A stretch of 64,000 bases of DNA from Rhynchonema sp. JSB1_4 (lineage: Eukaryota; Nematoda; Chromadorea; Monhysterida; Xyalidae): the NCBI GenBank assembly GCA_030248065.1, contig JASAMV010006906.1:41798-105797 (forward strand), in the 5' to 3' direction. The translations under genes were made by a program, and so were the position numbers. Each line of letters begins with the position of its first letter. Position 1 is the stretch's first letter. The notes beneath the pieces are model-generated. The model was not told the origin of the DNA and did not search any database. It worked only from the letters and a program-made list of their open reading frames with translations. This document shows positions 1 through 23,999 of the stretch, one piece after another.

Positions 1-1248
1 ACCATTACTACTCTGGCTCCGTTCATTATTCGGGCCATTTGTTTTCGAACCCTTTCGACCTTTTCCCCGACCACCTGACTTTTGGACATGAAAACTGCTG
101 GTGGTCACTGTGTCAGTAGTGCCCGTATTTGAAGACAAACTCGCCTCTTTTTTGCCCTTGCCTTCATTTGCAGTGTAGCTCCGAACCCGTTCCTCTTGCT
201 GTACGATGTCCCACAACTTCTCGCGCAGTGCGGTGATTGTCCAGCCACCGTCTGGTGCACATTTCTCGAGTTCACGATTGGCAAATGTCGGTAAACGGGA
301 TCTGATTATGGATTCGATCATGGATTCACTCAACACATCAAATTCGAGACCCATAGCGGCCAAATTACGAACGGCTGTGTCTGCCGCTTCAACAACAATC
401 TCGACCGCTTTGCCATCAGTTGAATGTGGCTTAGGCAGATTTTGCAGCTGATTGATAAACGCCAATTTCAAAGCCTTCTCATCACCATACCTTTTCACCA
501 ACAAACTCACGACTTGATCATAATTCTCATCAGTTGTTGCGAAGCCTTCAATCGTAACTGCCGCCTTGGCCACACACGAGCGTTTGAGCAGACCGAGTTT
601 CTCGGCCTTCGAGTACGATGGGTCGTCGTGCACATTCGATCGGAACTGTGTCCAAAATTCTGGCCAGTTTTTGATCTGCCCGTCAAACTGCAATGGCTTG
701 AGAGCCTCATATTTGACCGACCTCGGTGGTCGGGACTGAACCGTGGTTAGTGCACTGGTAAGCTGCTGCACCAACGCAGCCCCATCGGCACCAGAACCTG
801 TCTGCCGTTCAGCACTGGACGATCGACTTTTGCGACCGGCCATCTCAATGTTCTCGTCCAGCTCATGCAGTTTCGAAACCAAATAGCTTTTCAGGTCATT
901 CGCATCATCCAGCGCGGGCTGGTATTTCGAACCAAAAAAGTCATTATACAATTGCAACTCATCTGCGAAAGCCTTCGAGCTTTCGTCCAGGTCACCCAAC
1001 ATTTGCAGCCATTCCTCATTTCTGTCTGACACAGCAGCGATGCGATTTTTGAGATTGTCAACAAACGCAATAATCTCAATTTTTGCTGCGCGACATTTTG
1101 CAATAATCGTACCTGGCGGATCCTGGCGATCGAAAAACTCACACGACGGGTAGTCTTTGTCCTGCACACGTTTCATGAGAGCTGTCAGCGAGCTGTAACA
1201 TTGAGGCAATCCCATTCGAAGACGACCGCTGGGAGATTTGGTTGCCAT
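1..1248 (-). CDS. BEL/Pao-type retrotransposon gag region, partial
   Basis: One uninterrupted minus-strand frame runs from an ATG at 1248-1246 to the window edge, 416 codons with no stop. The N-terminal part is helical and charged. The middle, about residues 160-300, has the arrangement typical of BEL/Pao gag (DUF1759): a W-x-E-F-W-x-x-F core, then an E-K-L-x-x-L segment, a V-x-x-L-x-x-R-Y-G-D segment and an N-x-L-x-x-L-P segment. A Ser/Gly/Lys-rich tail follows where the nucleocapsid/protease linker is expected. Protease and polymerase would lie left of position 1. No frameshift is seen, so the copy may be young. I could not recognise an LTR or primer-binding site between 1249 and 1700. The BEL/Pao call is based on memory of the family, not on a search. 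Confidence 0.75.
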   Translation of the reverse strand, partial: MATKSPSGRLRMGLPQCYSSLTALMKRVQDKDYPSCEFFDRQDPPGTIIAKCRAAKIEIIAFVDNLKNRIAAVSDRNEEWLQMLGDLDESSKAFADELQLYNDFFGSKYQPALDDANDLKSYLVSKLHELDENIEMAGRKSRSSSAERQTGSGADGAALVQQLTSALTTVQSRPPRSVKYEALKPLQFDGQIKNWPEFWTQFRSNVHDDPSYSKAEKLGLLKRSCVAKAAVTIEGFATTDENYDQVVSLLVKRYGDEKALKLAFINQLQNLPKPHSTDGKAVEIVVEAADTAVRNLAAMGLEFDVLSESMIESIIRSRLPTFANRELEKCAPDGGWTITALREKLWDIVQQEERVRSYTANEGKGKKEASLSSNTGTTDTVTTSSFHVQKSGGRGKGRKGSKTNGPNNERSQSSNG

Positions 1249-1777
1249 GGTTGCACAATATTCGTCGAGTAATTCCGATTCCAAATTTGCGTTTTCCACA
1301 GGGATTCAGGATTGGGTTCACAGTGATTCAAATTTTGCTCACAGGGACGCAAACATTTTCCGCTTTGGGCCACAAAAACACAATTTTGGGGCGATTCACA
1401 TTATTCTGGATGCCACATTTAGTGACGAAGTCCAGACGGTGCAACGTTTACATTTTATTCCTCCGTTCCAATCCAATACATCCAAACAGTGAAGTTCACA
1501 AGCACAGAAACACAGAAAGTAAGCCAGCCGGTTATGTGCAGTCAAAACATCAATCAATATAATAGCGTGGGTAAAGTCAAGCACTGCTGCTAGCTGCACA
1601 CGCTGTAAACACGTGATACGCATTATTGGGGATTAGTCACCACAATAGCATACTTTTCTTTCTCTTCGCCCTTTGTGGGCTTATTCTTGCTCTTTGCGGG
1701 CGGCCTATAATGAAATGGCGAAATGAGGTGCGCATGGGAATGACAAGTAGAGTAAGAGGCACATAAACAGAAGTACA
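1249..1777. other. No recognised gene; possible leader of the retrotransposon and Polinton left margin
   Basis: The stretch holds only short overlapping ORFs. It should contain the leader and 5' LTR of the minus-strand BEL/Pao element and the left margin of the Polinton. I found no convincing LTR pair (the partner would be outside the window) and no inverted match to the right margin of the Polinton near 13.8-14.0 kb. Confidence 0.4.
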
Positions 1778-2014
1778 TTAAGCGGGTCTAACTTCTGTGT
1801 CGACATTTTTATGTACGCGTTTCACTTTCGCCTGTATGATGGGCTCTGGGCAATGATAAAATGACTCTATTATGGCGTTTTTGGACCAAAATCGAAGTGT
1901 TGCCGATACGTATACCCAAAGCTCGTGTGCAAGCACGTTTTGTTCTATTTCTATGCGTCTTTTATGATTTCGAAGCAACACAGATCGGTACAAAGCTTGA
2001 GACTTGCGTCGCAT
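1778..2014 (-). CDS. Small basic accessory ORF of the Polinton (78 aa)
   Basis: A 78-residue reading frame starting at the ATG at 2014-2012; the same frame extends upstream to 2212 but there overlaps the neighbouring 190-aa gene. The product is rich in Arg, Lys and aromatic residues and has no motif I recognise. It lies just downstream of the CxxC protein on the same strand, so both could be read from one transcript starting near 2700. Composition resembles the neighbouring Polinton ORFs rather than the flanking repeats. It could be a chance frame. Confidence 0.35.
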   Translation of the reverse strand: MRRKSQALYRSVLLRNHKRRIEIEQNVLAHELWVYVSATLRFWSKNAIIESFYHCPEPIIQAKVKRVHKNVDTEVRPA

Positions 2015-2112
2015 AGCTTCTGGCTTGGATGTCAAGCGTGACGTGGCAGGCGGGCCCCAATGGAGGGCCTCTTTTTTGTATTTTCTGTGTTTTTCGGAAC
2101 TGTATTGGATAT

Positions 2113-2685
2113 TTACAACTGATTCAGAGCCGTGGACGTGGCCAATTCGAGCTCGAAACACGACAAACACTGCGTGATGAAGAGTGTGAGAGTCCTTTTC
2201 TCGGGACACCACTGTTGGCTGCGTTTGCTCGTTTTCGTGTAGCAGACGTCACAGAAACTGGACGTGTGCACAGCAGCGCGAGCCTCCGTGAACTGTGAAT
2301 CGAGAAGCTTGTAACCGCGCTGTGTGACCGGTTTTTGCACGGACATGGGCGTTGAAAATGCGACACTGATGGCGTTGATCAATTTTGTGATATGTACACA
2401 ACGTTCACACAATGTTATGGCCGAGCTGACTTCGTCCGAATTGGAATAGTGCATCGGTTTCCTGTCAGCATTTTGTCTGCGGCAATAACGACACACGGCA
2501 AAGCTGTACGTGTGGCGTTTCACCGGTTTCACCATGGTTTTCTGACGCACACTGGTCAGTCTGCGTGGGTGGAATTTTCTGACTGATTTCGGTGTGCTGT
2601 GAATCGGGGTGCGATACATTTTGCGGCGTTTTGGGCTCGGAGAATGCTTCTCCGGCGTAATATCAGCATTCAATGTGATATCCAT
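2113..2685 (-). CDS. Polinton accessory protein with four CxxC pairs and a C-terminal LxCxE
   Basis: 190 aa. The first 60 residues are Lys/Arg/Ser/Pro-rich, resembling a nuclear localisation region. Four CxxC pairs follow at about residues 65-68, 93-96, 145-148 and 173-176, as expected of two zinc-binding modules. The last pair overlaps L174-S-C-F-E178, which matches the LxCxE retinoblastoma-binding consensus. Adintoviruses are known to encode small, diverse 'oncoid' proteins with LxCxE and CxxC motifs beside PolB, the position seen here. I infer, and cannot prove, that this is one of them. The ATG at 2685 faces the plus-strand ORF at 2827 across a 140-bp gap containing an inverted CCAAT (ATTGG) and a GC-box-like CCCCGCC. 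The LxCxE match could be a by-product of the zinc pair. Confidence 0.6.
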   Translation of the reverse strand: MDITLNADITPEKHSPSPKRRKMYRTPIHSTPKSVRKFHPRRLTSVRQKTMVKPVKRHTYSFAVCRYCRRQNADRKPMHYSNSDEVSSAITLCERCVHITKLINAISVAFSTPMSVQKPVTQRGYKLLDSQFTEARAAVHTSSFCDVCYTKTSKRSQQWCPEKRTLTLFITQCLSCFELELATSTALNQL

Positions 2686-2826
2686 CTTTTTGCGACACGC
2701 TTGTTCACAAATGAATGTCAGCTGTTGTTGGTACGCACGTCAGTACACGTGAGCCCTATGCTGATTGGCTAGCCCCGCCTCCCGCTACCGTCTCACAGCT
2801 GCTGGTCTGACGCTGTTTCATTCACG
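2686..2826. promoter_or_regulatory. Candidate divergent promoter in the Polinton accessory region
   Basis: The 141-bp gap between two divergent small ORFs contains an inverted CCAAT box (GATTGGC near 2763) and a GC-box-like CCCCGCC (about 2773), both usual in animal and viral early promoters. No TATA box is obvious. The promoter role is inferred from position and these two motifs only. Confidence 0.3.
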
Positions 2827-3018
2827 ATGAAACGCTTGTACTACACTTGGATTGTTCTGGAGCCGTGCCAAGGGGGTGTACCGAAAGTAGTTGGCACCGC
2901 GCCAAAATTGTTCGAAACGAAGCAAGCGGCGTTACAACACGCATATGTGCATGCAAGACCGAATGAAACACAAAGAGTTGATGTAATCAGCATGGAACTC
3001 GAGTTTAGCTTGTGGTAA
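2827..3018 (+). CDS. Small Polinton ORF of unknown function (63 aa)
   Basis: A 63-aa plus-strand frame that converges on PolB, its last 14 nt overlapping the 3' end of the polymerase gene. Sequence composition is protein-like, with a mixed beta/alpha pattern and no low complexity, signal peptide or membrane segment. I recognise no family. Its tight fit between the accessory gene and PolB argues for a real gene, but the short length leaves doubt. Confidence 0.4.
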   Translation: MKRLYYTWIVLEPCQGGVPKVVGTAPKLFETKQAALQHAYVHARPNETQRVDVISMELEFSLW

Positions 3019-6000
3019 AGCCATACGGAAGTGAATTGTGTGTATTTGGAATGTGCCGTCTTTTCGTGAAGTGATTTCTCATTTTCTTCACGATATATTT
3101 CGTGAAAACTTGTTGTTGTCTGTTTCGTGTGAAAACAAGCTGGCGTGATTCCGTTATTGTTTGTGACATGACCATTTGGTGCATTTGAATAAAACTGATT
3201 CCTGCATTCTCAGAAACCCTGAAACCTTTAGCTCTCACTTCATGCCGTTCTTCGTTGCTGGTTTTGCTGCGCAATCTGTACGAGTATGTTTTTGGGCTGC
3301 TAATTACAATCTCGGTCATTTCGTATCCATCCTGAATTTCATTCGTCATACTGCCCAGCATACCTATGGGTCGCGATACTGCAACAATTGGGTTCGGTTC
3401 ACCCCTTCTGTGGGTGAATATGACAGCATCTGTGTCAACATAAAGTAGCCGCGTACCCAATAACGACATGTGTTGATGCAAAAACATACGCGCCAAGGCA
3501 CACAGAGTGACCGCGTGCACCTTTGAGGCACTTACAAGTGGGGTTGCGAGGTGTTTATCTTTGCGGTAACTGACACACATTATATCTGACGAGACTGGGA
3601 CAACATTGGTGACTCTATTGGCGGGGCTGTGGATGGTCGTTAAATATTTGCCTGGATCACTGAAAAATAATGTCGCAATTCTGTCCCATGTTTCGGCAAG
3701 CTTACCATATTGAGCTACACAGCTGAGCTTGGCCGTGGCACGTTTGGCGGGATTATTTTCAATTTCGTCTGGCTGTAATTTTATTCCTTCGTGTTCCCAC
3801 AAAAGATCACAATAACGTTGTTTCTCCTCGCGTGTTTGCACATTTGCGGGATAAGGAGAACTTTTGACTTTCTCGGCAAAAAAGTGAGTTATGTAACTGG
3901 CAAATAAGCCACCCGTTTTTGTCTTTGTGTCGTACTGTAGTGTTTTGGGAAACGTCCATACTTCATAAACATCACGAATTTCATAACCCAATAGGACCGC
4001 ATATTGAAGCTCCTGTGTGGCAAATCCATATGGGCCAATAAGTTTTTCTTTTTCAGAATGCGTGCATTTGTCAGCCTGGTTTTTGGTCAATCCACAAGCT
4101 TTGCAGCACACGTATATGTTCCTGCCCTCATTGTCCCTCAGCGGCAGCAATGGGAGCAAGATATCGCTGGGAGCTTTCACTGTACAAAAAACAACCCCAT
4201 TATACTGGCTAATGTCTCCAAAATTTTCTGTCACCACTTTTGGACGTCCTATTGGGAACGGGTAGTACTTCTGAATGTATCCGTACAAGCTGACGGCGTC
4301 GTAATAACAAAGTTCCCAATCGTCATCAGCCTTGGCATACCTGCGGAAAACTTCAACTCTGCCTGCAAATAAACTTTTATCAATGTCCAGAGTCGGTGCA
4401 ACATTAACTGTTGGCTCCCACAATTTATAGGCATCTGTTTCGCGGATTGTCTGAAACTCGCACTCCCAAATTCTGACGTGGTGCGGAACCAACGAGCGAA
4501 TTTTGAGGTCGCGTTCCAACGTTTTCTGATAGAGTTCCGCAAATGTGTGCTTTCTGCCTTTCATTCTCTCATGAGAAGGCATACACAAATTGTGTCCGTG
4601 TATTGCACACCCGTGGAACGAGAAAGCAACTGAAACTTTGGTTCCGTTTAGTATCGCACCATCTAGTTTGAAAGATCCGACGGAAATTTCGCGATCATTT
4701 GACGCCATGTGAATTTTCTGGCCGCGTTTATGTTGCTCCCACATTAACCAAAGTTGGGATACCTTACTGTACATATCACCATGTCGCCACCCAGAAATGG
4801 GCATCAAAGCAATGCTGTTTTTTGGCATATATTTCATGCGGAAAGTTTTATCACAAATATTTGGCAAACTGACGGCCTCGGAAAACGGGCAAAGTCCTGT
4901 CAATGATAAAAAGTTTGTCCTGAACGCCGTGCATCCAAGTTGCAACAACTTGGCATCGGCCAGACAATAGGTGTGAAGCGTTGTTTGCATGCAAAACGGC
5001 TGCTTTTCAGCCTCGCTGTACCACTCCAAAAAAGCAGCTTTTCTCTTTGCTGTCATGTTTTCGGGCGAAAAATACTTCATTTCGGGGATTTTTCCTTTGT
5101 AATGTAACGTTTCACTTTTCAAGAAGTCGTATGGGAAAAATTGTTTGACCTCGCTCAGCCCCAACATTGAGGTAAATCGGTCAAGTGAAAAATTCAAATA
5201 ACTGAATGAATCTATAAACTTCAATGTTTTGTATGTCATGGCCAGCACCTTTGTGCCTCTCATGATGCATTTGGGTACGGTGCCCGTTTTCAGCATTTCA
5301 CGTAAGACGAACAGCATATCGAATGACTGAGCGTTATGGGCAATAAAAACTGCATTGCGTTGTGCCAAGACCCACTGCGTGAACTGCACAATCGATGTTT
5401 GACCTTGGAAAACCTTGATTTCGTTTCCGGCACAACCACAACTTTGTTTCAGACACTCGAAAATAGCCACAATGTACAAAACCGAATGTTCGTAAATATT
5501 GGGAACCGTTTGTGTAGCCGTTGTTTCGAAATCATAATAGATTATGTGCTCTTTTTTCTGGGCCAGACTTTTGTACTGTGGCATATAGCATGTGTGAGAT
5601 TGTTCTTGGTACGCGCGGCACAAAAAGCACCACTGTGTGTAACATTTGTGATCGTGTGAAGGTCTGATTTGGTAAATTTTGCCGCACTTCTTGCATCTTT
5701 GCAGCGTTTCGCATATAGATTGTCGTTTGCGGTTGTTTTTTGTGACTTTGATGGAATGGTTTATGAAGCAATCGTTAGGCATAGTTCTGTTACATTTTTG
5801 GCACGTTTTCATTGATCCTTGCTTTTTGCAGCGGGCTTCAAAACAATATTCACACTTTTCCTTCTCGCACAAGTGACGCCGTCGGTTTTGGAAACTTTTC
5901 TGGCATGAAAAGCAATACCCGTGACCGCCAAAAAAACTTTGAGCTGTGATCAGTTGATAGTGAGCGTTGCGAAATACTAAATTAATGCGCTTGTCTCTCC

Positions 6001-6922
6001 CTTTCAGACCAATAAAAATTGGCGCGTTTGCATTGTCACCATCAAATAAGTTTATTTGAAAATCACTGAAATATTCTTGTATTTGCATAATTTGTGTGCG
6101 GGTAACCATTGTTCCTTTTTCAAATCGCATAATGTCGCGAATTTTTTCGGCTTCTGCTTTTTGCTTCTTTTGGTTTCGCAACAAGTTTCTGAACTGTTTT
6201 CTGCCCTCCAAAAGAGCCATGCCAAGTGCCAAACTTTGAAATGCACACAAATTGTCTGTACAATTTGGGCTAACCGAAGTTCTTCCACCTGCCAGATTTT
6301 GCACTCTGACCAATCTGACACGCAAAATATCCGAAATAGAAACACTTTGTCTGCTTTCCAATACCCTACCAAGCATGGCGAGCAGCTTGTCGGCTTTTGC
6401 TTCTTTGTAATTCTCAAATTGTGCGATTATAGGCCTGTTGAAGTCTGGATGGTCAATTGTGAGACCTATTTTGTCGGTGGGCGTTGCATCAGAACAAACT
6501 TGTTTTATACTGGACCTTATTGCGTCGGTCAGCAATGTTTCCGGATTTTCTCCGCGGTTGGTTATTTTGAGCTCATATTGGGACGCAAAAGTGTGAAATT
6601 TTTTGACATAGACGTGGTCCAGCATTCGCAAAGTCCATCGTTTTGGTTGTGAGCCGCCGGGCATCATTTCGGGACTTTCTGGAGTTTGCGGGCGTCGTGC
6701 GACCATCTCTGGACTAGGGGGAGGAGTGGGAGTTTTTGCGCCTCCGGTTTGTTCATTACCAATTTCCATCATCTGTGAATCGGTAACGTACTGTTGTGTG
6801 TCATAATCTGGAGGTTGCGGTATCCATCCCGTTTCATTAACGATTGGTATCATTTCCGAGTCTTTGACGTAACCTTGGGAATCATATTCAGGTGCCTGAG
6901 GCACCCACCCGTCCGCTTCCAT
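3005..6922 (-). CDS. Protein-primed family B DNA polymerase (Polinton PolB), 1305 aa
   Basis: Replicates the element by protein priming. The first ATG is at 6922-6920; the frame extends 10 codons further without ATG. Residues 1-60 hold two tandem copies of an acidic ~28-residue unit, then a Pro/Ser-rich linker. Residues about 95-330 are the Polinton PolB N-terminal domain, including a D-N-L-C segment. A Cys/His-rich zinc region spans 335-450. Exonuclease motifs follow: Exo I D-F-E near 465, Exo II H-N-x-x-S-F-D near 530 and Exo III Y-x-x-x-D near 652. A VSR-like nuclease insertion lies near 750-825. Motif A (D-A-V-S-L-Y) is near 875, motif B near 1065-1073 and motif C D-T-D near 1163. In motif B the usual N-S pair is V-A, which is odd. 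The gene is divergent from the TBP-like gene with only 34 bp between start codons. All frames are open. Confidence 0.95.
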   Translation of the reverse strand: MEADGWVPQAPEYDSQGYVKDSEMIPIVNETGWIPQPPDYDTQQYVTDSQMMEIGNEQTGGAKTPTPPPSPEMVARRPQTPESPEMMPGGSQPKRWTLRMLDHVYVKKFHTFASQYELKITNRGENPETLLTDAIRSSIKQVCSDATPTDKIGLTIDHPDFNRPIIAQFENYKEAKADKLLAMLGRVLESRQSVSISDILRVRLVRVQNLAGGRTSVSPNCTDNLCAFQSLALGMALLEGRKQFRNLLRNQKKQKAEAEKIRDIMRFEKGTMVTRTQIMQIQEYFSDFQINLFDGDNANAPIFIGLKGRDKRINLVFRNAHYQLITAQSFFGGHGYCFSCQKSFQNRRRHLCEKEKCEYCFEARCKKQGSMKTCQKCNRTMPNDCFINHSIKVTKNNRKRQSICETLQRCKKCGKIYQIRPSHDHKCYTQWCFLCRAYQEQSHTCYMPQYKSLAQKKEHIIYYDFETTATQTVPNIYEHSVLYIVAIFECLKQSCGCAGNEIKVFQGQTSIVQFTQWVLAQRNAVFIAHNAQSFDMLFVLREMLKTGTVPKCIMRGTKVLAMTYKTLKFIDSFSYLNFSLDRFTSMLGLSEVKQFFPYDFLKSETLHYKGKIPEMKYFSPENMTAKRKAAFLEWYSEAEKQPFCMQTTLHTYCLADAKLLQLGCTAFRTNFLSLTGLCPFSEAVSLPNICDKTFRMKYMPKNSIALMPISGWRHGDMYSKVSQLWLMWEQHKRGQKIHMASNDREISVGSFKLDGAILNGTKVSVAFSFHGCAIHGHNLCMPSHERMKGRKHTFAELYQKTLERDLKIRSLVPHHVRIWECEFQTIRETDAYKLWEPTVNVAPTLDIDKSLFAGRVEVFRRYAKADDDWELCYYDAVSLYGYIQKYYPFPIGRPKVVTENFGDISQYNGVVFCTVKAPSDILLPLLPLRDNEGRNIYVCCKACGLTKNQADKCTHSEKEKLIGPYGFATQELQYAVLLGYEIRDVYEVWTFPKTLQYDTKTKTGGLFASYITHFFAEKVKSSPYPANVQTREEKQRYCDLLWEHEGIKLQPDEIENNPAKRATAKLSCVAQYGKLAETWDRIATLFFSDPGKYLTTIHSPANRVTNVVPVSSDIMCVSYRKDKHLATPLVSASKVHAVTLCALARMFLHQHMSLLGTRLLYVDTDAVIFTHRRGEPNPIVAVSRPIGMLGSMTNEIQDGYEMTEIVISSPKTYSYRLRSKTSNEERHEVRAKGFRVSENAGISFIQMHQMVMSQTITESRQLVFTRNRQQQVFTKYIVKKMRNHFTKRRHIPNTHNSLPYGFTTS

Positions 6923-6956
6923 TTTTACAAATGAAAATCGCGCACAGCGCACTTTA
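6923..6956. promoter_or_regulatory. 34-bp gap between divergent PolB and TBP-like start codons
   Basis: The ATG codons of the minus-strand polymerase and the plus-strand TBP-like gene are separated by only 34 bp. Core promoters must therefore overlap the coding regions or this gap. The gap holds a GCGC-rich palindromic centre (GCGCACAGCGC) and no TATA box. The regulatory role is inferred from the geometry. Confidence 0.35.
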
Positions 6957-7517
6957 ATGCTTTTTGTGACCTACTTTGCCGCAATGGTTGCACTGACCAA
7001 TGTGGTGGCCAAGGCTAAGCTGTCACGGTCTCTTGATCTGGCTGCTTGCGCCAAAAAGTTAGGAGGCAAGTACGAACCTCAAAAAATTCAAATGATGCGT
7101 TGGAGGGTTGCGCTACCTAAATGTACTTTCATGTTTTTTGCAAACGGTTCATTTATAGTTAACGGAGTGAGGTCAATCAGTGCGGCTCACACTGCGATAG
7201 AACACATGTTACAACAGCTGACCTCAAAATGTGGATTGAATGCACATTTGCAGCCCAATACATTCGCCGTTTGCAATATGATTTATTGCGGCTCATTGGG
7301 GTATTGCGTTGACCTTGTACATTTGAATAACAGTAGAGTGTTACAGTTTGAAGCAGAGTTACACAACGGGGGTTTGATGCGCATTGGGAACGTTACAGTA
7401 ATTTTATTTGCGAACGGTAAATTTCTTTTGAAAAACGTCAAGTGCGAGTCAGAAATGCTCAGTTGCGTGTCATACTTACAACGGGCATTAAAGTGCAACA
7501 TTTCAGCCGCAAAATAA
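6957..7517 (+). CDS. TATA-binding-protein-like protein encoded by the Polinton (186 aa)
   Basis: Two internal repeats match the fold of TBP. Repeat 1 (about residues 13-87) begins N-V-V-x-x-x-K-L, continues with L-D-L and K-Y-E-P, and ends in F-F-A-N-G-x-x-x-x-N-G-V. Repeat 2 (about 101-178) begins C-N-M, continues with E-A-E-L and ends in L-F-A-N-G-K. The two F-A-N-G signatures are 90 residues apart, the same register as the two F-x-S-G signatures in eukaryotic TBP cores, and the total length fits the ~180-residue TBP core. By alignment by eye, the two Phe residues of the F-x-x-G loops that intercalate DNA are kept, while the other two intercalating Phe positions appear as Ile and His. A role in directing host RNA polymerase to element promoters is inferred. 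A start at 6984 is also possible. Confidence 0.75.
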   Translation: MLFVTYFAAMVALTNVVAKAKLSRSLDLAACAKKLGGKYEPQKIQMMRWRVALPKCTFMFFANGSFIVNGVRSISAAHTAIEHMLQQLTSKCGLNAHLQPNTFAVCNMIYCGSLGYCVDLVHLNNSRVLQFEAELHNGGLMRIGNVTVILFANGKFLLKNVKCESEMLSCVSYLQRALKCNISAAK

Positions 7518-7518
7518 A

Positions 7519-7818
7519 ATGTCTCAACACTTGCTTCTCGTTTGGTGTTTTATGCTTGGGATTACGGTTGGTACATTATTATTTGCCCTCTCTCTTTACA
7601 TCCAACCGTGCTCCATTCCGCAAGATTACACAGACATTTTTTGCTCAAACGCACATGCAGTAGAACACACATTGAAGGACAATACTTTGCGCTTTCATTC
7701 TACAAACAAAGCAACCACTATCGGGTGCGCGGCCTATGTGCGAAACGTTGCGTTACAGCACAAGTGTAGTTTTGTGGGTATACACAATGACACATTGTAT
7801 GTTCAAACCTCTGGCTGA
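7519..7818 (+). CDS. Small membrane-anchored Polinton protein (99 aa)
   Basis: Starts 2 nt after the TBP-like stop codon and overlaps the start of the ATPase gene. Residues 5-30 form a strongly hydrophobic segment (L-L-L-V-W-C-F-M-L-G and on) followed by a Cys-containing soluble part with at least four cysteines, so it looks like a type II membrane or signal-anchored protein. I do not recognise its family. The position in the plus-strand cluster and tight spacing support it being real. Confidence 0.5.
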   Translation: MSQHLLLVWCFMLGITVGTLLFALSLYIQPCSIPQDYTDIFCSNAHAVEHTLKDNTLRFHSTNKATTIGCAAYVRNVALQHKCSFVGIHNDTLYVQTSG

Positions 7819-8434
7819 ACCGCTGGACCCTAGAATAAGAACACCAGCACGTATTATTGTCAGTGCGGCCAGTCAAGGCGGAAAAACACAAATTTGTAAA
7901 GAACTCATACGACGATGCGACACCATCTTCGACCGACCGCCAGGGTGTATTATGGTGTGTTATAAAGTTAACCCGCAACAGTACTATGATCTTCAAGATG
8001 ACCCTCGTGTTGTGTTGAAAGAAGGCTGGCCCGATCCTCAAGTTTTGGCCAATGTTCAAAATCCACCATCTCTGCTGCTCATCGATGATATGATAGACAA
8101 TTTAAAAAATGCTGTTGATTGGTTCGTCAGATTGTCGCATCACCTTGACACGTCAGTATTACTAACAACGCAAGAATTGTACCACAAAGATATGAGAATC
8201 TTGAGGCTGAATTGCACAGGGTTTCTGTTTTTGAAAAACCCCAGTGACGGGTCATCCATTAACACGATTTCCAGGCAGTTAAATTCACGACAGAGAAATA
8301 AAATGCTCAGCGCGTATGCTGATGCCACACGAGAGAACTATTCGCATTTGTTTGTGGATTGTAGTTTGAAGACCGACGACCGTTTTCGGTTACGAAGTTG
8401 CATAACCAGCGTGCCTCAAATTTATTATCTCTAA
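7799..8434 (+). CDS. FtsK/HerA-type genome packaging ATPase (211 aa)
   Basis: Packages the element's DNA into capsids. Using the ATG at 7799 (an alternative is 7787), Walker A is S-A-A-S-Q-G-G-K-T at about residues 22-30 and Walker B is L-L-L-I-D-D at about 92-97, followed by a conserved T-T-Q-E sensor-like segment and a Q-L-N-S-R-x-R-N region. Length and motif spacing match Polinton/adintovirus packaging ATPases. The stop codon abuts the ATG of the next gene. Confidence 0.92.
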   Translation: MFKPLAEPLDPRIRTPARIIVSAASQGGKTQICKELIRRCDTIFDRPPGCIMVCYKVNPQQYYDLQDDPRVVLKEGWPDPQVLANVQNPPSLLLIDDMIDNLKNAVDWFVRLSHHLDTSVLLTTQELYHKDMRILRLNCTGFLFLKNPSDGSSINTISRQLNSRQRNKMLSAYADATRENYSHLFVDCSLKTDDRFRLRSCITSVPQIYYL

Positions 8435-8746
8435 ATGAAACGTCTCAGAAAACACCGCCTTTTTCTTGAGTTTCTCTTGAAATCAGGCCGAAAACGCCGC
8501 CCCGCAATTAAAAGCGCCAGTGACGATCAGATAAAACTTATTTCTGATATTTCCATTAATATTCTCAGCAACATTCTTGACATTGACAAGTCAACGTTGA
8601 GAAAGCTCAAAAAATTCAAAAAAGTTGTCCGACTTTTGGCCGATACGTCCGTTTCCATAAAGCGCAAGCGCAATGCTCTCATTAAATCTGCACCCAGTCT
8701 CCTTTCCCTAATTATTCCGCCAGCTTTAAGATTATTGCAAAAATGA
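8435..8746 (+). CDS. Conserved small Polinton protein of unknown role (103 aa)
   Basis: Lys/Arg-rich N-terminus, then an amphipathic helical segment (I-x-x-I-S-I-N-I-L-x-N-I-L) and a K-L-K-K-F-K-K-x-V-R-x-L-A motif, ending in a hydrophobic tail. As I remember the family, a small basic gene with this pattern lies next to the ATPase in many Polintons, its function unknown. It starts directly after the ATPase stop and overlaps the next ATG by 4 nt. Confidence 0.7.
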   Translation: MKRLRKHRLFLEFLLKSGRKRRPAIKSASDDQIKLISDISINILSNILDIDKSTLRKLKKFKKVVRLLADTSVSIKRKRNALIKSAPSLLSLIIPPALRLLQK

Positions 8747-9348
8747 GCGACGTGCAGAAATGGTGGTTATACCCGCATGCTCTCGGACAATCACCGGCTC
8801 AACCAGTTTTAAATCAACTCGACTATGACATGCAAAACATTTTGAAAAAGAATATCCCAGCCGACCAGAAAATAAAACTTTTTCATCAAGTGTTGGGAAA
8901 ACATGTCACGGTCAATGAAGGTAATAAAATGTACAAGACCCCGCTGTTGGAACACTCTGAAAAGTTGAAATCTGATGAAAAGCCGTCTTATGGACTAATT
9001 CCCACAAAAAAGGGCAAAAAGGCCGCAGAAATAATAGAAACTTACATACCCGATCTGTTTGATTCAGATGACAAACTTTTAGTCAAAGGCGAGCCAGTAC
9101 CAGGAACAAACCGTTGGGACATATTAAATCATTTAGTTTCTGGGAGACAGAAACAAAAACCGCCCCCGACCGGAACAGGATATGTGCTAAACGAGCTTCA
9201 AGAACGTAACGTACCGGAAACAGTGCTTTTGAACCCGAATTTACGCACTCCAGTTCCAAAAACTCCAGTCCCGCTCACATCTCCCCGCGCGCCAAAAACC
9301 AGACGTCGGATGCCACGAACAAAGCGAAAATTTGATGAACAAGAATGA
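8743..9348 (+). CDS. Conserved Polinton protein, probably virion or core associated (201 aa)
   Basis: The N-terminal half contains a helical segment of the form L-D-x-x-M-x-x-I-L-x-x-x-I-P-x-x-x-K-I-K-L-F-x-Q-V-L, which I associate with a widely conserved Polinton gene of unknown role. The C-terminal 50 residues are Pro/Lys/Arg-rich with repeated P-V-P-K-T-P units and end in a basic patch, suggesting DNA or capsid contact. Overlaps both neighbours by 4 nt, as expected of a compact viral gene cluster. Confidence 0.65.
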   Translation: MSDVQKWWLYPHALGQSPAQPVLNQLDYDMQNILKKNIPADQKIKLFHQVLGKHVTVNEGNKMYKTPLLEHSEKLKSDEKPSYGLIPTKKGKKAAEIIETYIPDLFDSDDKLLVKGEPVPGTNRWDILNHLVSGRQKQKPPPTGTGYVLNELQERNVPETVLLNPNLRTPVPKTPVPLTSPRAPKTRRRMPRTKRKFDEQE

Positions 9349-10271
9349 ATAAAATTTTAACCAAACTTTATTATTCAGGCCCCACAAAGTATGCAGGTCA
9401 GTCGGCCATTTTACGTGCTGCCAAGCAGAAAAATAAGAAAGTAACACTTAAGAATGTACGAGACTTTTTGGAACGTCAATCCACATACACTCTTCACAAA
9501 CCTCTGCGCCACAAATTCAAAAGAAACAAGGTTTTTGCGTTTGGCATAGACCACACTTTGCATATGGACACAGCACACATGATACGCTTAGCCGAGTTCA
9601 ATGACAACGTGCGTTATTTGTTGTGCGTGGTTTGCTGTTTCAGCCGGTACTTATGGGTGGAACCTCTTGAGAACAAACGTCCGGAAACAATAGCCCCAAA
9701 ATTGCGGCACATACTCGATTCCACTCGCCAAACGGTCATGTTTTTGTATAGCGATAATTCAACAGAATGGGCTGGCGCTGTAAAGCAGCTTCTGAATGAA
9801 AGGGGCATTGAACATATTGTTTTGAGGACAAGTGCTTTCCATGCTTCAATAGTGGAGCGCAGGATATTAGATTTGAAACGAAAAATATACGCTCACATGA
9901 CTCACAGAAACACGCTGAGGTACATTGATAATTTACAGGCTATATGTCAGGCTCTGAATAACTCTTATCACCGGATCCTCAAACGAACACCGGCATCCAT
10001 TAACGCTTCGAACGAGAGTGAAGTTTTGAAAGAACGCACGAAACAAGACCAACCAAGCGGTCCGCCCAAATTTCATGTGGGTGACAAAGTCAGAATTCAG
10101 GTCGAGAAAACGGCATTTCAGAGAGGATACACAAAAAACTTCTCAGACGAAATTTTCACAATTCACAGAGTTCTGAAACACGAGCCATGTCTTTATGAGT
10201 TGAAAGATGTTTTCGGCGAAGTTTTGCAAGGCAAGTGGTACGCGTGGGAATTATCTCGGATACGCCAGTAA
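9345..10271 (+). CDS. Retroviral-type (rve) integrase of the Polinton (308 aa)
   Basis: Inserts the linear element into the genome. The catalytic triad reads D75 (H-M-D-T-A-H-M), D137 (Y-S-D-N-S-T-E-W) and E171 (I-V-E-R-R), with the D-E spacing of DDE integrases. An N-terminal K-Y-A-G-Q-S segment and a C-terminal V-G-D-K-V-R ... K-D-x-x-G-E-x-L-x-G-K-W-Y barrel are the usual Polinton integrase flanks. The frame is intact. Confidence 0.95.
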   Translation: MNKILTKLYYSGPTKYAGQSAILRAAKQKNKKVTLKNVRDFLERQSTYTLHKPLRHKFKRNKVFAFGIDHTLHMDTAHMIRLAEFNDNVRYLLCVVCCFSRYLWVEPLENKRPETIAPKLRHILDSTRQTVMFLYSDNSTEWAGAVKQLLNERGIEHIVLRTSAFHASIVERRILDLKRKIYAHMTHRNTLRYIDNLQAICQALNNSYHRILKRTPASINASNESEVLKERTKQDQPSGPPKFHVGDKVRIQVEKTAFQRGYTKNFSDEIFTIHRVLKHEPCLYELKDVFGEVLQGKWYAWELSRIRQ

Positions 10272-10338
10272 ACTTACGCTGAAGTGTGCTCCAATTCTTG
10301 GATTATTCGTATTATCGTTACTTCGCTTCATTACAAAA

Positions 10339-11667
10339 ATGGACCATTTTACAGTAACTCTAGTCAGCAATTCGTTTACAAACAAAACTGAAAGTCACTC
10401 AGATTTTCGCATTTTGTTGCCTCGTCCGCTTGATTTGTCTAGCGGTTTGTGGGATGTTGGATTGAGGGAGATAAGTTTTACAAAAAGCTGGAACAATGTT
10501 GGTGGACACATCTTTGTTCACACAAAAGATGGAGTTTTCTCTAAATTCATTCCGTTTGCGTACTATGACACCATTGAGCAAGTTTTGAATGCAATAAATA
10601 AAAGCAACATGACCAAAACGGACGAAATCCCGCTTAGTTTTCGCGCACGTTTGCCTCGCGCGACCAAGTCCCAGCCCTTAAAAAGTCCAACCTCTGACCC
10701 AACCAAAAGTCCGACCTCTGGCCCGGTTGTCGTCCGTTCAAAAAGTCCACCCAAAAGTCCAACCTCTGACCCAACCAAAAGTCCGATCTCTGGCCCGGTT
10801 GCCGTCCGTTCAAAAAGTCCACCCAAAACTCCAACCTCTGACCCAACCAAAAGTCCGACCTCGGGGCCGGTTGCCGTCCGTTCAAAAAGTCCACCCAAAA
10901 CTCCAACCTCTGACCCAACCAAAAGTCCGACCTCGGGGCCGGTTGCCGTCAGTTCAAAGGGTACAACCAAAAGTCCGGTGCCCGTCCGTTCAAAAAGTCC
11001 GACCTCTGGCCCGGTTGGCGTCAGTCAAAAGGGTCCGATCTCTGGCCCGGTCACCGTACGTTCAAAAAGTCCGACCTCGGTACCGGTTGCCGTCAGCTCA
11101 AAGGGTACAACCAAAAGTCCGGTCTCCGTGCGTACAAAAAGTCCGACCCCCGCTCGAGCAAAGTCTAATGCTCCAAGAGTGGTTGTCACTCCTCCGGTAC
11201 CGAAACGTCCTCGACAATCCCAAGATCCAGTCATAAAGTTTGAAATGAAAAACGGCAAAGTTCGCTTGGTCAGCGGATTCAAAGTTTTAGGTGTGTATCT
11301 TTCTCCCTCGATAAAGTACGCACTTGGATTTTCGGACCCTCTCATTCTCGGTACCGATATTGCGAAACATCAGCCAGATTTGAGCGGAGGAATCACGTCT
11401 CTTATGATTTACTCCGACCTAGTCACGCACAGCATCGTGTCGGACACTTACGCACCCCTTTTACGTGTGGTGGCCATTAAAGACGGCATCAAGTTTGGTC
11501 AACGTGTTACAGTCGGCTATGAAAACCCTTTGTTCGTCGGAGTGCTGAAACATTACTTTGATTCCATAGGATTGAAAATTCTTACAAGTGCTGGCGAACC
11601 AGTGCACTTATCCATTCCAGAAACAGTGGTGGTTCTTGAGTTCAGGAAAAGGTCCATGTTTGGCTAA
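10339..11667 (+). CDS. Penton-like minor capsid protein with a long Ser/Pro/Thr repeat insert (442 aa)
   Basis: The frame is open from 10207, but the ATG at 10339 gives the expected N-terminus and avoids a 65-nt overlap with integrase. Residues 1-100 have the Polinton minor capsid pattern: V-T-L-x-S-N-S, L-P-R-P-L-D-L, a W-x-V-G-L-x-E-I-like W-D-V-G-L-R-E-I, then S-W-x-N-V and Y-Y-D-T-I. Residues about 115-275 are a repeat insert rich in K-S-P-T-S units, built from a 72-bp tandem repeat. A globular C-terminal part of about 165 residues completes the jelly-roll-like protein. Single-jelly-roll penton role is known for the family. The insert is unusual and may form a flexible surface spike or phospho-acceptor region. 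Confidence 0.8.
   Translation: MDHFTVTLVSNSFTNKTESHSDFRILLPRPLDLSSGLWDVGLREISFTKSWNNVGGHIFVHTKDGVFSKFIPFAYYDTIEQVLNAINKSNMTKTDEIPLSFRARLPRATKSQPLKSPTSDPTKSPTSGPVVVRSKSPPKSPTSDPTKSPISGPVAVRSKSPPKTPTSDPTKSPTSGPVAVRSKSPPKTPTSDPTKSPTSGPVAVSSKGTTKSPVPVRSKSPTSGPVGVSQKGPISGPVTVRSKSPTSVPVAVSSKGTTKSPVSVRTKSPTPARAKSNAPRVVVTPPVPKRPRQSQDPVIKFEMKNGKVRLVSGFKVLGVYLSPSIKYALGFSDPLILGTDIAKHQPDLSGGITSLMIYSDLVTHSIVSDTYAPLLRVVAIKDGIKFGQRVTVGYENPLFVGVLKHYFDSIGLKILTSAGEPVHLSIPETVVVLEFRKRSMFG
10681..11165 (+). repeat. 72-bp tandem repeat inside the minor capsid gene
   Basis: Four near-identical 72-bp units start at 10681, 10753, 10825 and 10897 (24 residues each), followed by shorter degenerate copies to about 11165. 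The period is a multiple of three, so copy-number change keeps the frame open. Confidence 0.9.
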
Positions 11668-11853
11668 ATGCGTCACCCAGTATTCGTTGGTAGAAAGTTC
11701 CAGCGTGGTCGAGGATTTGGAAGCTCTTTTTTGCAAGGCTTCGTGGATGGTTTCTTTCCGCTAGCAGGCAGAGCAGCAAAACTTATAAAACCGCACTTCG
11801 TCAAAGCGAGCATTAAAGGGAATCGCAAACGACGTCGTGACGCGCTTTCATAA
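11668..11853 (+). CDS. Short amphipathic/basic virion peptide, pVI-like by position (61 aa)
   Basis: Starts at the base after the minor capsid stop. A Gly/Phe-rich helix (F-G-S-S-F-L-Q-G-F-V-D-G-F-F-P-L-A-G) is followed by a Lys/Arg-rich tail. In adenoviruses and adintoviruses a short amphipathic membrane-active peptide (pVI-like) and a basic core peptide (pX-like) occur among virion genes; this one has the amphipathic character. The assignment is by composition and position only. Its TAA overlaps the next ATG (TAATG). Confidence 0.55.
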   Translation: MRHPVFVGRKFQRGRGFGSSFLQGFVDGFFPLAGRAAKLIKPHFVKASIKGNRKRRRDALS

Positions 11854-11993
11854 TGCCAAAACGTATTCGCCGACGTAAACCAAGACGAAAACGCAGACAA
11901 GTTGGAGCAGGAAAACGTCGGGCCTTTGGTTTCACTCCATTTGTGAGACGCTTTCGCAAATATGGTCCAAAACGAGGCCGCAAGCGGCGCTAG
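11853..11993 (+). CDS. Protamine-like core peptide, pX-like (46 aa)
   Basis: Missed by length-filtered ORF calling. The ATG overlaps the previous stop (TAATG) and the stop at 11991-11993 lies inside the major capsid gene, whose start at 11962 overlaps it by 32 nt. Nearly half of the 46 residues are Arg or Lys, arranged as R-R-R-K-P-R-R-K-R-R blocks around a Gly/Phe segment. This matches the adenovirus mu/pX DNA-condensing peptides and analogous adintovirus genes. DNA condensation in the capsid is inferred from composition. Confidence 0.7.
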   Translation: MPKRIRRRKPRRKRRQVGAGKRRAFGFTPFVRRFRKYGPKRGRKRR

Positions 11994-13266
11994 TTTTGTG
12001 CCTCCTTGTCTTGACGTTTTCCAAACCTTACCACAGCAAGTTGCAATTCAACGCACTATTTGTCAACAAATACGGCCCACCAATGCTTTGACAAAAAACT
12101 CTTCCGTAGAGTTCCATGTTGCGGGCTCAAATTGGTGGATTAACACAGACCAGATTTATTTGCGCACCTTAGTTCGCTTGATAAAACATCCAAACAAGAA
12201 TATTGCTGAAACAGATGAATGCAGCGTTATTAACTATCCAGCCCTTTGTCTCTGGGGACAAATGCGCGTGTCGCTCAACAACACACTTGTTGAGAATCTC
12301 CAAGAATTTGCGTTTCACTCATATATATCGACTTTGTTGAACCACGACGTCAGTTTCAAAGATGGTATTTTGAAGGCTGGTTCCTTCATTTTGGACGACG
12401 ACAAGCATTTTGACACAAAAAACAGCAAATCGTACAAAGCACAAAAACAGTTCTTCAAAGCAAGCAAAACCAGGGAACTAGTGGCACGATTATCAACAGG
12501 GGGTGTATTCAACTTGGGACGTCGGATCCCTCCGTTTGTGAGTCTAAAAATTGAACTCTGGCCAAACCCAGACTCAGTGAACACAATTACTTATGACCCA
12601 AACACCATCAACAGTTTCGGTTTGGAAATAGTTGATTGCAGTCTTTTTGTGGAAAAGAATTTGGTTCTAGACTCAGTCAATGTAGCGATGGAGACCAAAT
12701 TGCGCTCTCGACCCATGGTGTTTCCAATGAATAAAACCGTGCTGCGGTCAATTTTAATACCCGAAGGTGTGAGCGAGTCACCAAATAACACTATTTTCCG
12801 TGGTCCGCAACCCAATCGCATTTTAGTAGCAGTAATGGAAGATGATGTTTTCCGTGGCTTGAACAGCAAAAATCGATTTGTTTTTGGAAACCACGATTGT
12901 TCATTTGTCTCGGTGAGAGTAGGTTCAGAGGTATATCCTTTCGAATGTGAATCTACACCAGCCGATTACGATAACGACCGATACGCTCTAAACTTTTTAC
13001 GCTTGTGGAGAAGTTTGTGCTTGGACAATGAAGCTTGGGGTGAACTAGATTTTCACAGTTTCAAGAACAATTTTTGCTTCCACATAATCGATCTATCACA
13101 ATCACAGTTGCCGGTCTGGGAATTGTCACGTTACTCAGATTGCTCCGTAACAATAAAGTTCTCCAAAAATACTTCCAAGTCATTGCGGGCCTTAATTTTG
13201 GCAGAAACCCAATGCGAAATGCTCATTAACGCCGAGAGAAACGTGATGTTTCAACCAGAGATATGA
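11962..13266 (+). CDS. Major capsid protein (double jelly roll, hexon-like), 434 aa
   Basis: Length and order of features fit Polinton MCPs: an N-terminal segment with V-E-F-x-V-x-G-S-x-W-W-I, then L-R-x-L-V-R-L-I, a Q-M-x-V-S-L-N-N segment and H-S-Y-I-S-T-L-L-N-H before a helix-loop, followed by two beta-rich halves. It precedes the protease, as in most Polintons. Forms the icosahedral shell. The frame is intact. Confidence 0.85.
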   Translation: MVQNEAASGASFVPPCLDVFQTLPQQVAIQRTICQQIRPTNALTKNSSVEFHVAGSNWWINTDQIYLRTLVRLIKHPNKNIAETDECSVINYPALCLWGQMRVSLNNTLVENLQEFAFHSYISTLLNHDVSFKDGILKAGSFILDDDKHFDTKNSKSYKAQKQFFKASKTRELVARLSTGGVFNLGRRIPPFVSLKIELWPNPDSVNTITYDPNTINSFGLEIVDCSLFVEKNLVLDSVNVAMETKLRSRPMVFPMNKTVLRSILIPEGVSESPNNTIFRGPQPNRILVAVMEDDVFRGLNSKNRFVFGNHDCSFVSVRVGSEVYPFECESTPADYDNDRYALNFLRLWRSLCLDNEAWGELDFHSFKNNFCFHIIDLSQSQLPVWELSRYSDCSVTIKFSKNTSKSLRALILAETQCEMLINAERNVMFQPEI

Positions 13267-13769
13267 ACACACGGGATCTAAAAACGTTCATTAACCTTCA
13301 CACACGGCTTCGGGCTCGTGTGTCCGTTTCGGCCAGAAATTGCATGCCAAAATTGCGACCCGGTTTCGCAGTTATAGCAAACACGGACATCAGTGGAAAT
13401 CCAGGCAAACATTGGGTGGTATTGACGTCAACAAAACGTGGCAGGTACTTTTTTGATTCGTTTGGTAGACCGCCGTTTCATAAAGAATTCAAAGCCCGAT
13501 TTCATAACACGAAATGTGTTCAGTCGCGCTCCAGAAACACATGCGGTCAACATTGTTTGTTCTTTTTGTACAATTTTTATGTGTTAGGACTTTTACCGTC
13601 ATCGATCATGAAATTGTATTCTAATGATTTGTTAATTAATGATTATAATGTCGTGACATTTGTGAAGAATAAAAAAAACTCCTGTCGTGGTGCAAGCAGC
13701 ACACAGTCTTACACCGCACCTGTTGTCTCGCTTGACTGCACACAGCAAGCTGCTCTCTTGCAGACCTGA
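13263..13769 (+). CDS. Adenain-like cysteine protease (virion maturation), 168 aa
   Basis: Catalytic residues of the adenain fold can be read in order: His50 in G-K-H-W-V-V-L, Asp65 in F-F-D-S-F-G, Gln87 in V-Q-S-R-S and Cys94 in N-T-C-G-Q-H-C. Cleaves capsid precursors. It overlaps the major capsid stop by 4 nt and is the last gene of the plus-strand cluster. Downstream, an AATAAA at 13986 can serve as poly(A) signal for the cluster. Confidence 0.93.
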   Translation: MNTRDLKTFINLHTRLRARVSVSARNCMPKLRPGFAVIANTDISGNPGKHWVVLTSTKRGRYFFDSFGRPPFHKEFKARFHNTKCVQSRSRNTCGQHCLFFLYNFYVLGLLPSSIMKLYSNDLLINDYNVVTFVKNKKNSCRGASSTQSYTAPVVSLDCTQQAALLQT

Positions 13770-13802
13770 TAATTCAGGCAACTTTTGCCTTCAATCTGGC
13801 AC

Positions 13803-13846
13803 CTTGGATGTGTAATCTTCAAAAAATGTCACAATACACATCCAAG
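13803..13846. terminator. 12-bp stem hairpin downstream of the protease gene
   Basis: CTTGGATGTGTA at 13803-13814 and TACACATCCAAG near 13835-13846 form a perfect 12-bp stem with a ~20-nt loop containing an A-run. It lies 35 nt after the protease stop. It may act in 3'-end formation or be the remnant of an inverted terminal structure; the sequence alone does not decide. Confidence 0.5.
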
Positions 13847-13899
13847 TACTACCGCCGTTCCAGCCCACCACAACCTACGCGACAGCAGGCCCCGGAAAG

Positions 13900-13996
13900 C
13901 CGCGAAAAAAAAAAAAAAAACGGCAAAAGGGCCGGAGCCCCCCCCCGCCCACCCCCCCCAACCCCCCCCGCCACCCCCCCGAAACAATAAAAAGTA
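13900..13996. repeat. A-tract, C-rich low-complexity run and AATAAA at the Polinton right margin
   Basis: A 16-nt A-run (13905-13920) is followed by C-rich sequence (13935-13980) and AATAAA (13986-13991). Frames crossing it are low-complexity and not genes. The run separates the protease unit from the end of the spliced minus-strand gene at 14004. Confidence 0.7.
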
Positions 13997-14003
13997 ACAC
14001 ATA

Positions 14004-16282: not shown

Positions 16283-16482
16283 TAGCAAATTGCAGCGATG
16301 AGATGATAATGGCTGAATTGCTAGAATGACGAAAAAAGATTTGAATGTTTCTTATATGTAGTCTTATTTGCTGCTTACATCAATTTGTAATGGTTTACGG
16401 TACCTGGCGGGAAATTTAAAACAATCGGAAAAATACATAAGCAGCAGATTTATAGTTATCCTGTCATTCTTTGCTTTGCACG
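16283..16482. promoter_or_regulatory. 200-bp divergent promoter between the spliced PolB-N gene and a small gene
   Basis: The two start codons (16282 minus and 16483 plus) are 200 bp apart in divergent orientation. A TATA-like TTTATAG lies at about 16448, 30-40 bp upstream of the plus-strand ATG. No other gene intervenes, so co-regulation is possible. This is inferred from spacing. Confidence 0.4.
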
Positions 16483-16883
16483 ATGGATATCCGTCCGGAC
16501 GAAATAGCTGAAGTGCAGCATTTCCTTAGAATGCAGTCGGTTGAAGGCGAGAAACAGCTTGAGGAAATGTTGTTCGCGCTCGTGTCTGGCCCAATCAACA
16601 CCGAAGTCTGGCAGAATCTTGACCTGTACTGCCCAGGCTGTCTCCGTGATCGTACCCACCCCTATTCGCCTGAAGTCCCGTCCCATTTCTGTGGCAAAGA
16701 CATTGGGACAATCCTCCCCCAATGCATGAGTCAAGTGGTGAAAAAATTAGACGACACACTATTGAACGATTGTTGGAAGGAGTTTTGTCGGAAAGTTAGT
16801 GGCAGCTTTAAAATGTACTCTAAAGGATTCATATTCTATTTATTCTGCAGGCCGACAAGTCCGACATCAGTCGTCGCGTGTAG
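16483..16883 (+). CDS. Two-exon small gene of unknown function (114 aa)
   Basis: Exon 1 is 16483-16794 and exon 2 starts at 16851 after a 56-nt GT-AG intron (donor AAA|GTTAGT, acceptor TTCTGCAG). The product is acidic at the N-terminus and contains Y-C-P-G-C-L-R-D-R ... H-F-C-G-K-D-I-G and C-W-K-E-F-C-R-K, five or more cysteines that could bind zinc. The TAG at 16881 is followed in the same frame by 41 further codons to a TGA at 17006-17008, directly before AATAAA. The downstream segment also looks protein-like. So the TAG may be a premature stop, a readthrough site, or the segment may be chance. I recognise no family. Confidence 0.5.
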
Positions 16884-17008
16884 ATGGAATGGTTTGCTGA
16901 ATTCAAGGGTATGAAGAATATTCTGATGATGAAAAAACACGATCTAGCTGTGATGATGTCCTTCAAGTTCCCTGGTCCTATTGGTTTCCCTGTTGATTTG
17001 TTTGATTG

Positions 17009-23325: not shown

Positions 23326-23999
23326 TCTGCTGTTTTCTATGTGTATCATGTGTTTTCGTGCTTAAATCTTGTTCCTCCGCTAGGTTTTTATTCTCTTTCT
23401 TTCCGTTTTTCGGGTTTTCAGAGTTGTTCGTGTCTGCTCGTTAGCGCCCGTTGCGCTTTGTGTTCAACTACTATTCGTTCAACCATCATTTATTTGCGTA
23501 AAACTAACAAGTAACGTCGTCGCCGGAGTGATATTCGTTCAAGTGAAAAAGGGAAAATCCAGCTGTCAGCTTGTCCGACAGCTCCCTACGTCGGGTTATC
23601 GATATCATCGTTAATATATCTTATATTTCATCGGTATTTCGTGTGTGAGTGGAGTTCAGGAACCGCGTACAACCCGCTGGTTCACATGTGGTGAGCCTCG
23701 ACAACGACTGGACAACTTGCAGCGCGACAGACGACGAAGGAGTGGTGTTTTGTAGAGTGTGGGGGTGATTTTTGGGGGAATTTTTCGAATTTTTCATCGC
23801 ATCTGACATCTTCTCTTTCATTGAGGCTTCGTCGCCGACTTCGCGCACGACATCTACAACATCTACGACAACGACAGCAGCGACTACAACCGTCGCCCCG
23901 ACCTCAGCGGTCCAGATGTGTACTCGTTCAGTTACATATATCCGAAATATTTGAAAAAAGCGTGGGTTTTCACAAAAAACCGTTTTTTCGTAAGGATTT
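23326..23999. other. No recognised gene between minisatellite and palindrome
   Basis: Only short, low-complexity frames are present (a Thr-rich or Val-rich frame around 23820-23930 is produced by ACGACA-type repeats). I see no splice-consistent gene, LTR pair or RNA. Confidence 0.5.

Follow-up and report, generated by a model that had tools for sequence, protein, structure and literature searches.

A Polinton-type element in the genome of the nematode Rhynchonema sp. JSB1_4 encodes its own two-lobe TATA-binding protein (TBP), and elements of the same lineage (lineage A) carry a recurrent, strand-specific word, GCATTAA, upstream of their polymerase gene and of two operons, those of orf99 and of the capsid. 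From comparisons of these elements we hypothesize, with a probability of roughly 0.7, that the lineage-A TBP is the element's own core-promoter factor, one that would read CATTAA together with host TFIIB and RNA polymerase II. TBP is among the most conserved of transcription proteins, and its recognition word has hardly changed; because both are so conserved, it is rare to find a natural TBP with a changed word that can serve as a test case. The general view of Polintons, for their part, is that they rely on the host for transcription. The element lies in a stretch of 64,000 nucleotides (hereafter the window), in which the sequence-only reading had proposed a Polinton-like element with a TBP-like gene; that proposal is borne out, and the gene is no lone capture, there being 32 such loci in the same genome.

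The open reading frame at 6957-7517 (+) is present as described, with a stop-free translation of 186 amino acids, and its two F-A-N-G signatures do lie 90 residues apart, at F61 and F151. It matches the Pfam TBP family (PF00352) in two stretches at E=2.8e-23, with a score of 82 bits and two TBP lobes above the curated cut-off of 22.9 bits, and also matches solved TBPs by sequence (1mp9 at E=7e-14, 1tbp at 2.5e-9 and 1cdw at 2.6e-8). An AlphaFold (AF2) model of this reading, built from the frame aligned with eight homologues, has a pLDDT of 86.4 and a pTM of 0.76; judged from its secondary structure, the predicted strand-helix order (E-H-E-E-E-E-H) occurs twice over, as expected of the TBP saddle, one strand in the second copy being too short to be listed. 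In an alignment of paralogues, the latter begin at a methionine equivalent to residue 10, so the gene probably occupies 6984-7517 (+; 177 aa, PF00352 E=2.3e-23), a longer reading from 6957 being possible. The product is a two-lobe TBP: chance or a translation artefact as the source of the frame is ruled out by the Pfam score, by the purifying selection described below, and by matches to PF00352 in all 21 copies scanned. The 34-bp divergent promoter described earlier needs correction: that figure measures from 6922 to 6957, whereas the spacer between the start codons, with the neighbouring polymerase probably starting at the ATG at 6922, is 61 bp.

The set of genes around TBP is Polinton-type. 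A family B DNA polymerase (DNA_pol_B_2, PolB; 3005-6922, -; PF03175 E=4.9e-28) is divergent from TBP, and beyond TBP on the plus strand lie orf99 (7519-7818), which is kept in lineage A (found by tblastn in L009-L016) and has no Pfam match; a packaging-ATPase-like protein (7787-8434) with a Walker-A-like GGKT seen by eye, kept in L009-L016 and weakly in L025, for which an FtsK/A32-type family was sought without a convincing family match; orf103 (8435-8746) and orf201 (8743-9348), both conserved by tblastn; and an rve-type integrase (9345-10271), whose matches to PF00665 (E=4e-5, under the curated cut-off) and, by profile, to PFV integrase structures (E=2e-4) modestly support its place as the rve integrase of a Polinton. 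The following orf486 (10207-11667, +) has similar counterparts in L009-L013 and L015 and partial ones in L021, L022 and L025; it has no Pfam match, and we take it to be a putative minor capsid or penton. Its K-S-P-T type repeats lie at 10563-11236, a region open in several frames, and words such as AAAAAGTCCG are repeats within the orf486 region in the window and in L009.

Next come two short basic frames: one of 61 aa (11668-11853, +), which contains the candidate promoter word of the capsid operon, and a very basic one of 46 aa (11853-11993, +), which belongs to that operon, overlaps the capsid start and in our view resembles the adenovirus core peptide pX/mu, by composition only; similar basic frames occupy the equivalent place in several lineage-B elements. 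The putative major capsid protein (11962-13266, +), in Polintons a double-jelly-roll protein, is recognized from its position and its conservation in both lineages, with no convincing match in Pfam, PHROGs or PDB. Adjoining it is a putative viral cysteine protease of the adenain/S273R-like type (13263-13769, +; PF00770 E=0.0046, under the cut-off), whose profile (A9) best matches S273R (6lj9, E=0.00098) and then adenain (1avp, E=0.0013); PF00770 is reached at E<=0.05 by two of nine members of the protease family, and one member matches an ElaD/SseL-like family instead. On the other side of PolB, the Cys-pair-rich orf190 (2113-2685, -) is conserved in L011 and L012, with weak Pfam matches only. 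The presence of PolB, rve integrase, putative cysteine protease, ATPase-like protein and putative capsid in one element is shared with Polintons/Mavericks and adintoviruses. Terminal inverted repeats of at least 25 bases were not found within positions 1-20000 of the window, and a comparison of flank to flank gave short matches at chance level only, without revealing the element ends; this copy may therefore be truncated, and for lack of the repeats we call it Polinton-type rather than a complete Polinton. Among the 11 element proteins of the window that were scanned (a set outside which the 61- and 46-aa frames fall), none matches TFIIB or RNA polymerase. Nearby, a 102-aa frame at 14945-15250 (-) resembles the N-terminal part of PolB (24% identity over 75 aa, pairwise E=1e-7) and is perhaps what is left of another Polinton next to this one; at 22505-23514 there are open frames of a repetitive kind, FPIIPSGQLAFPYYI.

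The host genome (204 Mb, 5747 contigs) contains at least 62 TBP-lobe matches, which group into 34 loci. One is the host TBP on C798, whose frame is divided among exons, one is an exon on C409 that we take to be TRF2-like, and 32 are others, near-identical duplicates included. A near-full-length two-lobe open frame is found in 25 of these 32 loci, the remainder comprising three shortened frames (C3532), the frame-broken L014, L025 cut by a contig end, the partial L017, and one frame with an internal stop. Further Polinton genes are present in 18 of 20 stretches around the other TBP loci (L017 and L027 are without them). Two arrangements recur: in lineage A (the window and L009-L016) all nine loci have TBP divergent from PolB, with orf99 coming after TBP, and in lineage B the TBP gene is found past the protease, eight of the nine stretches that show both TBP and the capsid gene having these two on opposite strands (the exception is L021). 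Orthologues next to PolB, which the sequence-only reading had suggested looking for in other Polintons, did not emerge from other species in the collections searched, which apparently hold few eukaryote genomes. Downstream of TBP and on its strand, six lineage-B elements (L019, L020, L025-L028) have a Thr-rich frame of 235-297 aa, with no Pfam family above cut-off in five of the six as scanned.

The TBP copies are mostly under purifying selection, with dN/dS between 0.06 and 0.22 in nine of the ten pairs with finite dS (17 pairs were tried and the other seven were saturated), although five of these, with dS values exceeding 2, are rough estimates; the tenth, the very close pair L020/L026, gives 0.64 from few changes. 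A 27-row tree places all of lineage A in a single group (100/99), gives lineage B a fork at 92/92 and the cellular TBPs one at 87/78, and separates the three by long branches. TBP paralogues are common in animals, and this host has a TBP of its own plus the TRF2-like exon, as would suit the idea that the copies are host paralogues lying by chance beside Polintons. That idea, already disfavoured and in our estimate extremely improbable, was rejected on the uninterrupted frames within a conserved Polinton gene order, the many diverged copies, and their grouping apart from host TBP. The constant divergence of TBP from PolB in lineage A would also fit a role in steering integration, say towards polymerase III promoters, or in replication, say by bending origin DNA, and a tRNA-like Rfam match (36 bits, 15359-15444, -) does lie near the element; but this is a single match near one copy, and the word described next stands before genes, so such a role seems very improbable.

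The proposal of a dedicated promoter factor draws on the upstream regions of lineage A, examined in eight elements (the window, L009-L013, L015 and L016; L014, a near-copy of L010 with broken frames, was left out). The regions were the 100 nt upstream of the script-chosen PolB and orf99 starts and the gap before the basic frame or capsid gene, 23 in all without the L016 capsid gap. GCATTAA is the commonest of all 7-mers in them: 18 of 23 regions have it where 0.41 would be expected, and no 7-mer exceeded 8 in 300 first-order Markov resamplings. Broken down by gene, the word precedes PolB in 5/8, orf99 in 6/8 and the capsid in 7/7 gaps, and CATTAA alone in 6, 8 and 7, respectively. Control regions upstream of the ATPase, orf103, orf201, integrase and TBP genes have GCATTAA in 1 of 39; with the wordless L016 capsid gap added, the contrast is 18/24 versus 1/39 (Fisher P=9e-10). 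The background in the window (22001-64000) is 0.048 per kb per strand.

Three copies in the window are candidate core promoters: 6954-6960 (-), upstream of PolB; 7485-7491 (+), within the 3'-terminal part of the TBP gene and 34 nt before the orf99 start; and 11810-11816 (+), 43 nt before the 46-aa basic frame of the capsid operon. In the orf99 and capsid regions together, the word lies 33-43 nt ahead of the start codon in 10 of 15, that is, at -33 to -35 before orf99 in 5/8 and at -36 to -43 before the basic frame in 5/7 (L010 has it at -96 and L011 at -76); the orf99 word of L009 is merely 8 nt from the ATG. PolB is without GCATTAA in three of the eight elements, that of L009 having CCATTAA. 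The word falls in different reading frames of the capsid gap (as ALK or SIK), and protein conservation therefore does not explain it. The base two positions after CATTAA is G in 18 of the 19 sites tabulated (of 21; the orf99 sites of L009 and L016 were left out as too near the ATG). Another sequence enriched in lineage A, ATGTTTCA, was dropped as a promoter word, being scattered over both strands. This candidate promoter word of lineage A is new here, as are the lineage-B boxes and the residue contrast described below.

In lineage B the corresponding place is taken by TATAAA. It occurs in 11 of 13 regions upstream of the basic frame and capsid gene, against 0.77 expected and a best of 9 for any 6-mer in 500 resamplings; with two elements added, 8 of the 9 lineage-B elements examined show it in the promoter of the basic frame, at -34 to -43 (L021 is without it). 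None of the 13 regions contains CATTAA, and among the lineage-A capsid gaps TATAAA is present in 1/8, namely the window's own. The contrast between lineages has Fisher P values of 0.0004 for CATTAA and 0.003 for TATAAA, which overstate the evidence because the elements share ancestry. A TATA-type box is likewise found within 150 nt upstream of 8 of 13 lineage-B TBP genes (three of the stretches being slightly or clearly shorter) and upstream of none of the eight in lineage A; four lineage-B TBP genes without the box (L020, L022, L038, L039) have TGATGTTTCA in common upstream of the start. Host TBP alone could read the lineage-B TATAAA boxes.

These positions and orientations bear on the possibility that GCATTAA is bound by a host factor, with the Polinton-type TBP working at other places or at TATA boxes in general. 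GCATTAA contains ATTA, which we take to be a homeodomain- or POU-like core; the TBP gene itself has no sense copy upstream (0/8; the antisense copies in 4/8 are the PolB word read from the other side); and L016, the most divergent lineage-A element, has the A-type changes at residues P191 and T215 of its TBP despite having no word at PolB and neither CATTAA nor TATAAA in its capsid gap. Against a host factor stand the strand preference, with the reverse word in 1 and the sense word in 18 of the 23 promoter regions, the TATA-like spacing seen before orf99 and shared with the lineage-B boxes, and the fact that the word occupies the place of TATAAA in lineage B; on balance we consider it unlikely. 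By eye, L016/L046 (C2279) has CTAATA at -31 before orf99 and at -41 before the basic frame, and CTAATA might be a third promoter word in L016.

Residues of the TBPs that face DNA or TFIIB were compared in 25 copies (8 of lineage A and 17 of lineage B, near-copies included; 12 of lineage B without near-copies), with positions assigned by us in yeast TBP numbering, the intercalating phenylalanines being F99, F116, F190 and F207. As the sequence-only reading had stated, two of these four are kept in the window's protein (F116 and F207), with I and H at the other two. N69, N159, E188 and F207 are kept in all 25 copies and E186 in 18; F190 is kept in 5/8 of lineage A and 17/17 of lineage B, F99 is I in 17/17 of lineage B and 5/8 of lineage A, and F116 is F or Y in lineage A and W in lineage B. 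The lineages part at P191, which is N or C in lineage A (0/8 kept) and proline throughout lineage B (17/17; 12/12 without near-copies), and at T215, which is K, Q or M in lineage A (0/8) and kept in lineage B (17/17; 12/12), while T124 is N in seven of eight A copies (T in L015) and L or V in lineage B. The point at which lineage A has T in place of A is the centre of the box, presumably the contact site of T215 and T124. The altered DNA specificity proposed earlier gains from the lineage-specific promoter word and from these contact changes, and we infer it rather than observe it; the A/B difference is one split, so that the covariation of residues and word counts as one event. A proline at P191 is reported, in a passage of PMC12529657, to favour T at TATA position 1, where lineage A has C. 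Passages in two papers name two glutamates facing TFIIB (C.L3.2 and C.L3.4 in PMC7221094, E184 and E188 in PMC12529657), and we equated C.L3.2 and C.L3.4 with E186 and E188 by spacing.

The conservation of these glutamates (E188 above all) would also suit a decoy that ties up host TFIIB or TFIIA and shuts down host transcription, but such a decoy is not obviously in need of the invariant DNA-facing N69, N159 and F207, and the promoter words differ between the lineages; we regard it as quite improbable. A tentative extension of the dedicated promoter factor, to which we give slightly less than an even chance, is that the two lineages run separate TBP/TATA pairs, lineage B reading TATAAA and lineage A reading GCATTAA. 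The two words would then share a register and differ at two bases (T1 to C and A4 to T), and P191 and T215, with T124, sit where the two changed base pairs would be contacted. L016 is a counter-example to a lineage-A TBP that reads the word.

The closest working analogue of the proposed lineage-A system is the late system of herpesviruses, whose TBP mimics (KSHV ORF24, EBV BcRF1) likewise combine a TBP-like domain of a DNA virus, a variant TATA word and host RNA polymerase II. According to portions of PMC12529657 and PMC4893493, the beta- and gammaherpesvirus mimics act at TATTWAA, which like CATTAA has T at position 4, and the EBV capsid gene BcLF1 has TATTAAA. The analogy has limits: the same portions of PMC12529657 describe ORF24 as having an extra C-terminal DNA-binding part, acting alongside five other viral proteins, and keeping the four Phe and the Pro while missing the TFIIB glutamates, whereas the lineage-A protein is a bare 177-aa TBP that has lost the Pro and kept E188. 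BcRF1, moreover, binds TATA and TATT alike in vitro (a section of PMC4893493), so selectivity in herpesviruses does not reside in TBP alone, which calls for caution in our reading of lineage A.

TBPs are also carried by other large dsDNA viruses. Excerpts from the literature report a TBP-containing gene cluster in 59% of mirusvirus genomes (PMC10132985), a TBP in a megavirus together with RNA polymerase subunits and TFIIB (PMC11464507), and a TFIIB-like protein in nearly all surveyed TBP-bearing viruses, C.L3.2 being kept in about 40% of the other viral TBPs (PMC7221094); these viruses differ in their large genomes, and the megavirus in having its own polymerase subunits and TFIIB. The sole matches in phage collections at E<=1 (3 records) are the virus-encoded TBPs of two haloarchaeal tailed viruses, HRTV-9 and HJTV-2, which differ in their archaeal hosts, their 75-77 kb genomes and an identity of 24-34% over the matched part. 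A phmmer search for TBP relatives elsewhere gave none at E<=0.001, a 21-sequence TBP profile found eight TBPs (one named archaeal, two named merely TBP and five unnamed), and IMG/VR gave no relative of PolB, the ATPase, the integrase or either TBP group; as these searches need shared short words, they do not show that relatives are absent. PolB has three database relatives, of which the one organism-named is a sea-urchin protein (29% identity).

Full-text literature searches, with subscription papers and supplements outside their scope, found no report of a Polinton TBP. No TATA or TBP term occurs in the main texts of papers on Mavericks, integrating DNA viruses, double-jelly-roll viruses and animal-virus gene transfer (PMC11071308, PMC11071296, PMC8097293, PMC10120064) or on virophages and Polinton-like viruses (PMC9952930); PMC7786948 mentions TBP in another context, and PMC10675990 mentions TATA-binding proteins once, apparently in mirusvirus-derived elements.

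In the mechanism that we propose, the lineage-A TBP would bind GCATTAA in place of TATAAA, the loss of the P191 proline and of T215 would make T at position 1 and A at position 4 less strictly required, and the retained TFIIB-facing glutamates would recruit host TFIIB and RNA polymerase II. Because the TBP gene is without the sense word, it might be expressed first and then activate the genes for replication and the capsid. How an element whose gene block spans about 12 kb might keep early and late genes apart would be explained by a TBP of its own and a promoter word to match. Separate TBP/TATA pairs, if true, would amount to a natural orthogonal re-coding of the TATA box in one nucleus, atop host TBP, and this one genome offers paired TBPs and promoters suited to direct binding tests. 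Within the host nucleus, the element may thus operate gene switches of its own.
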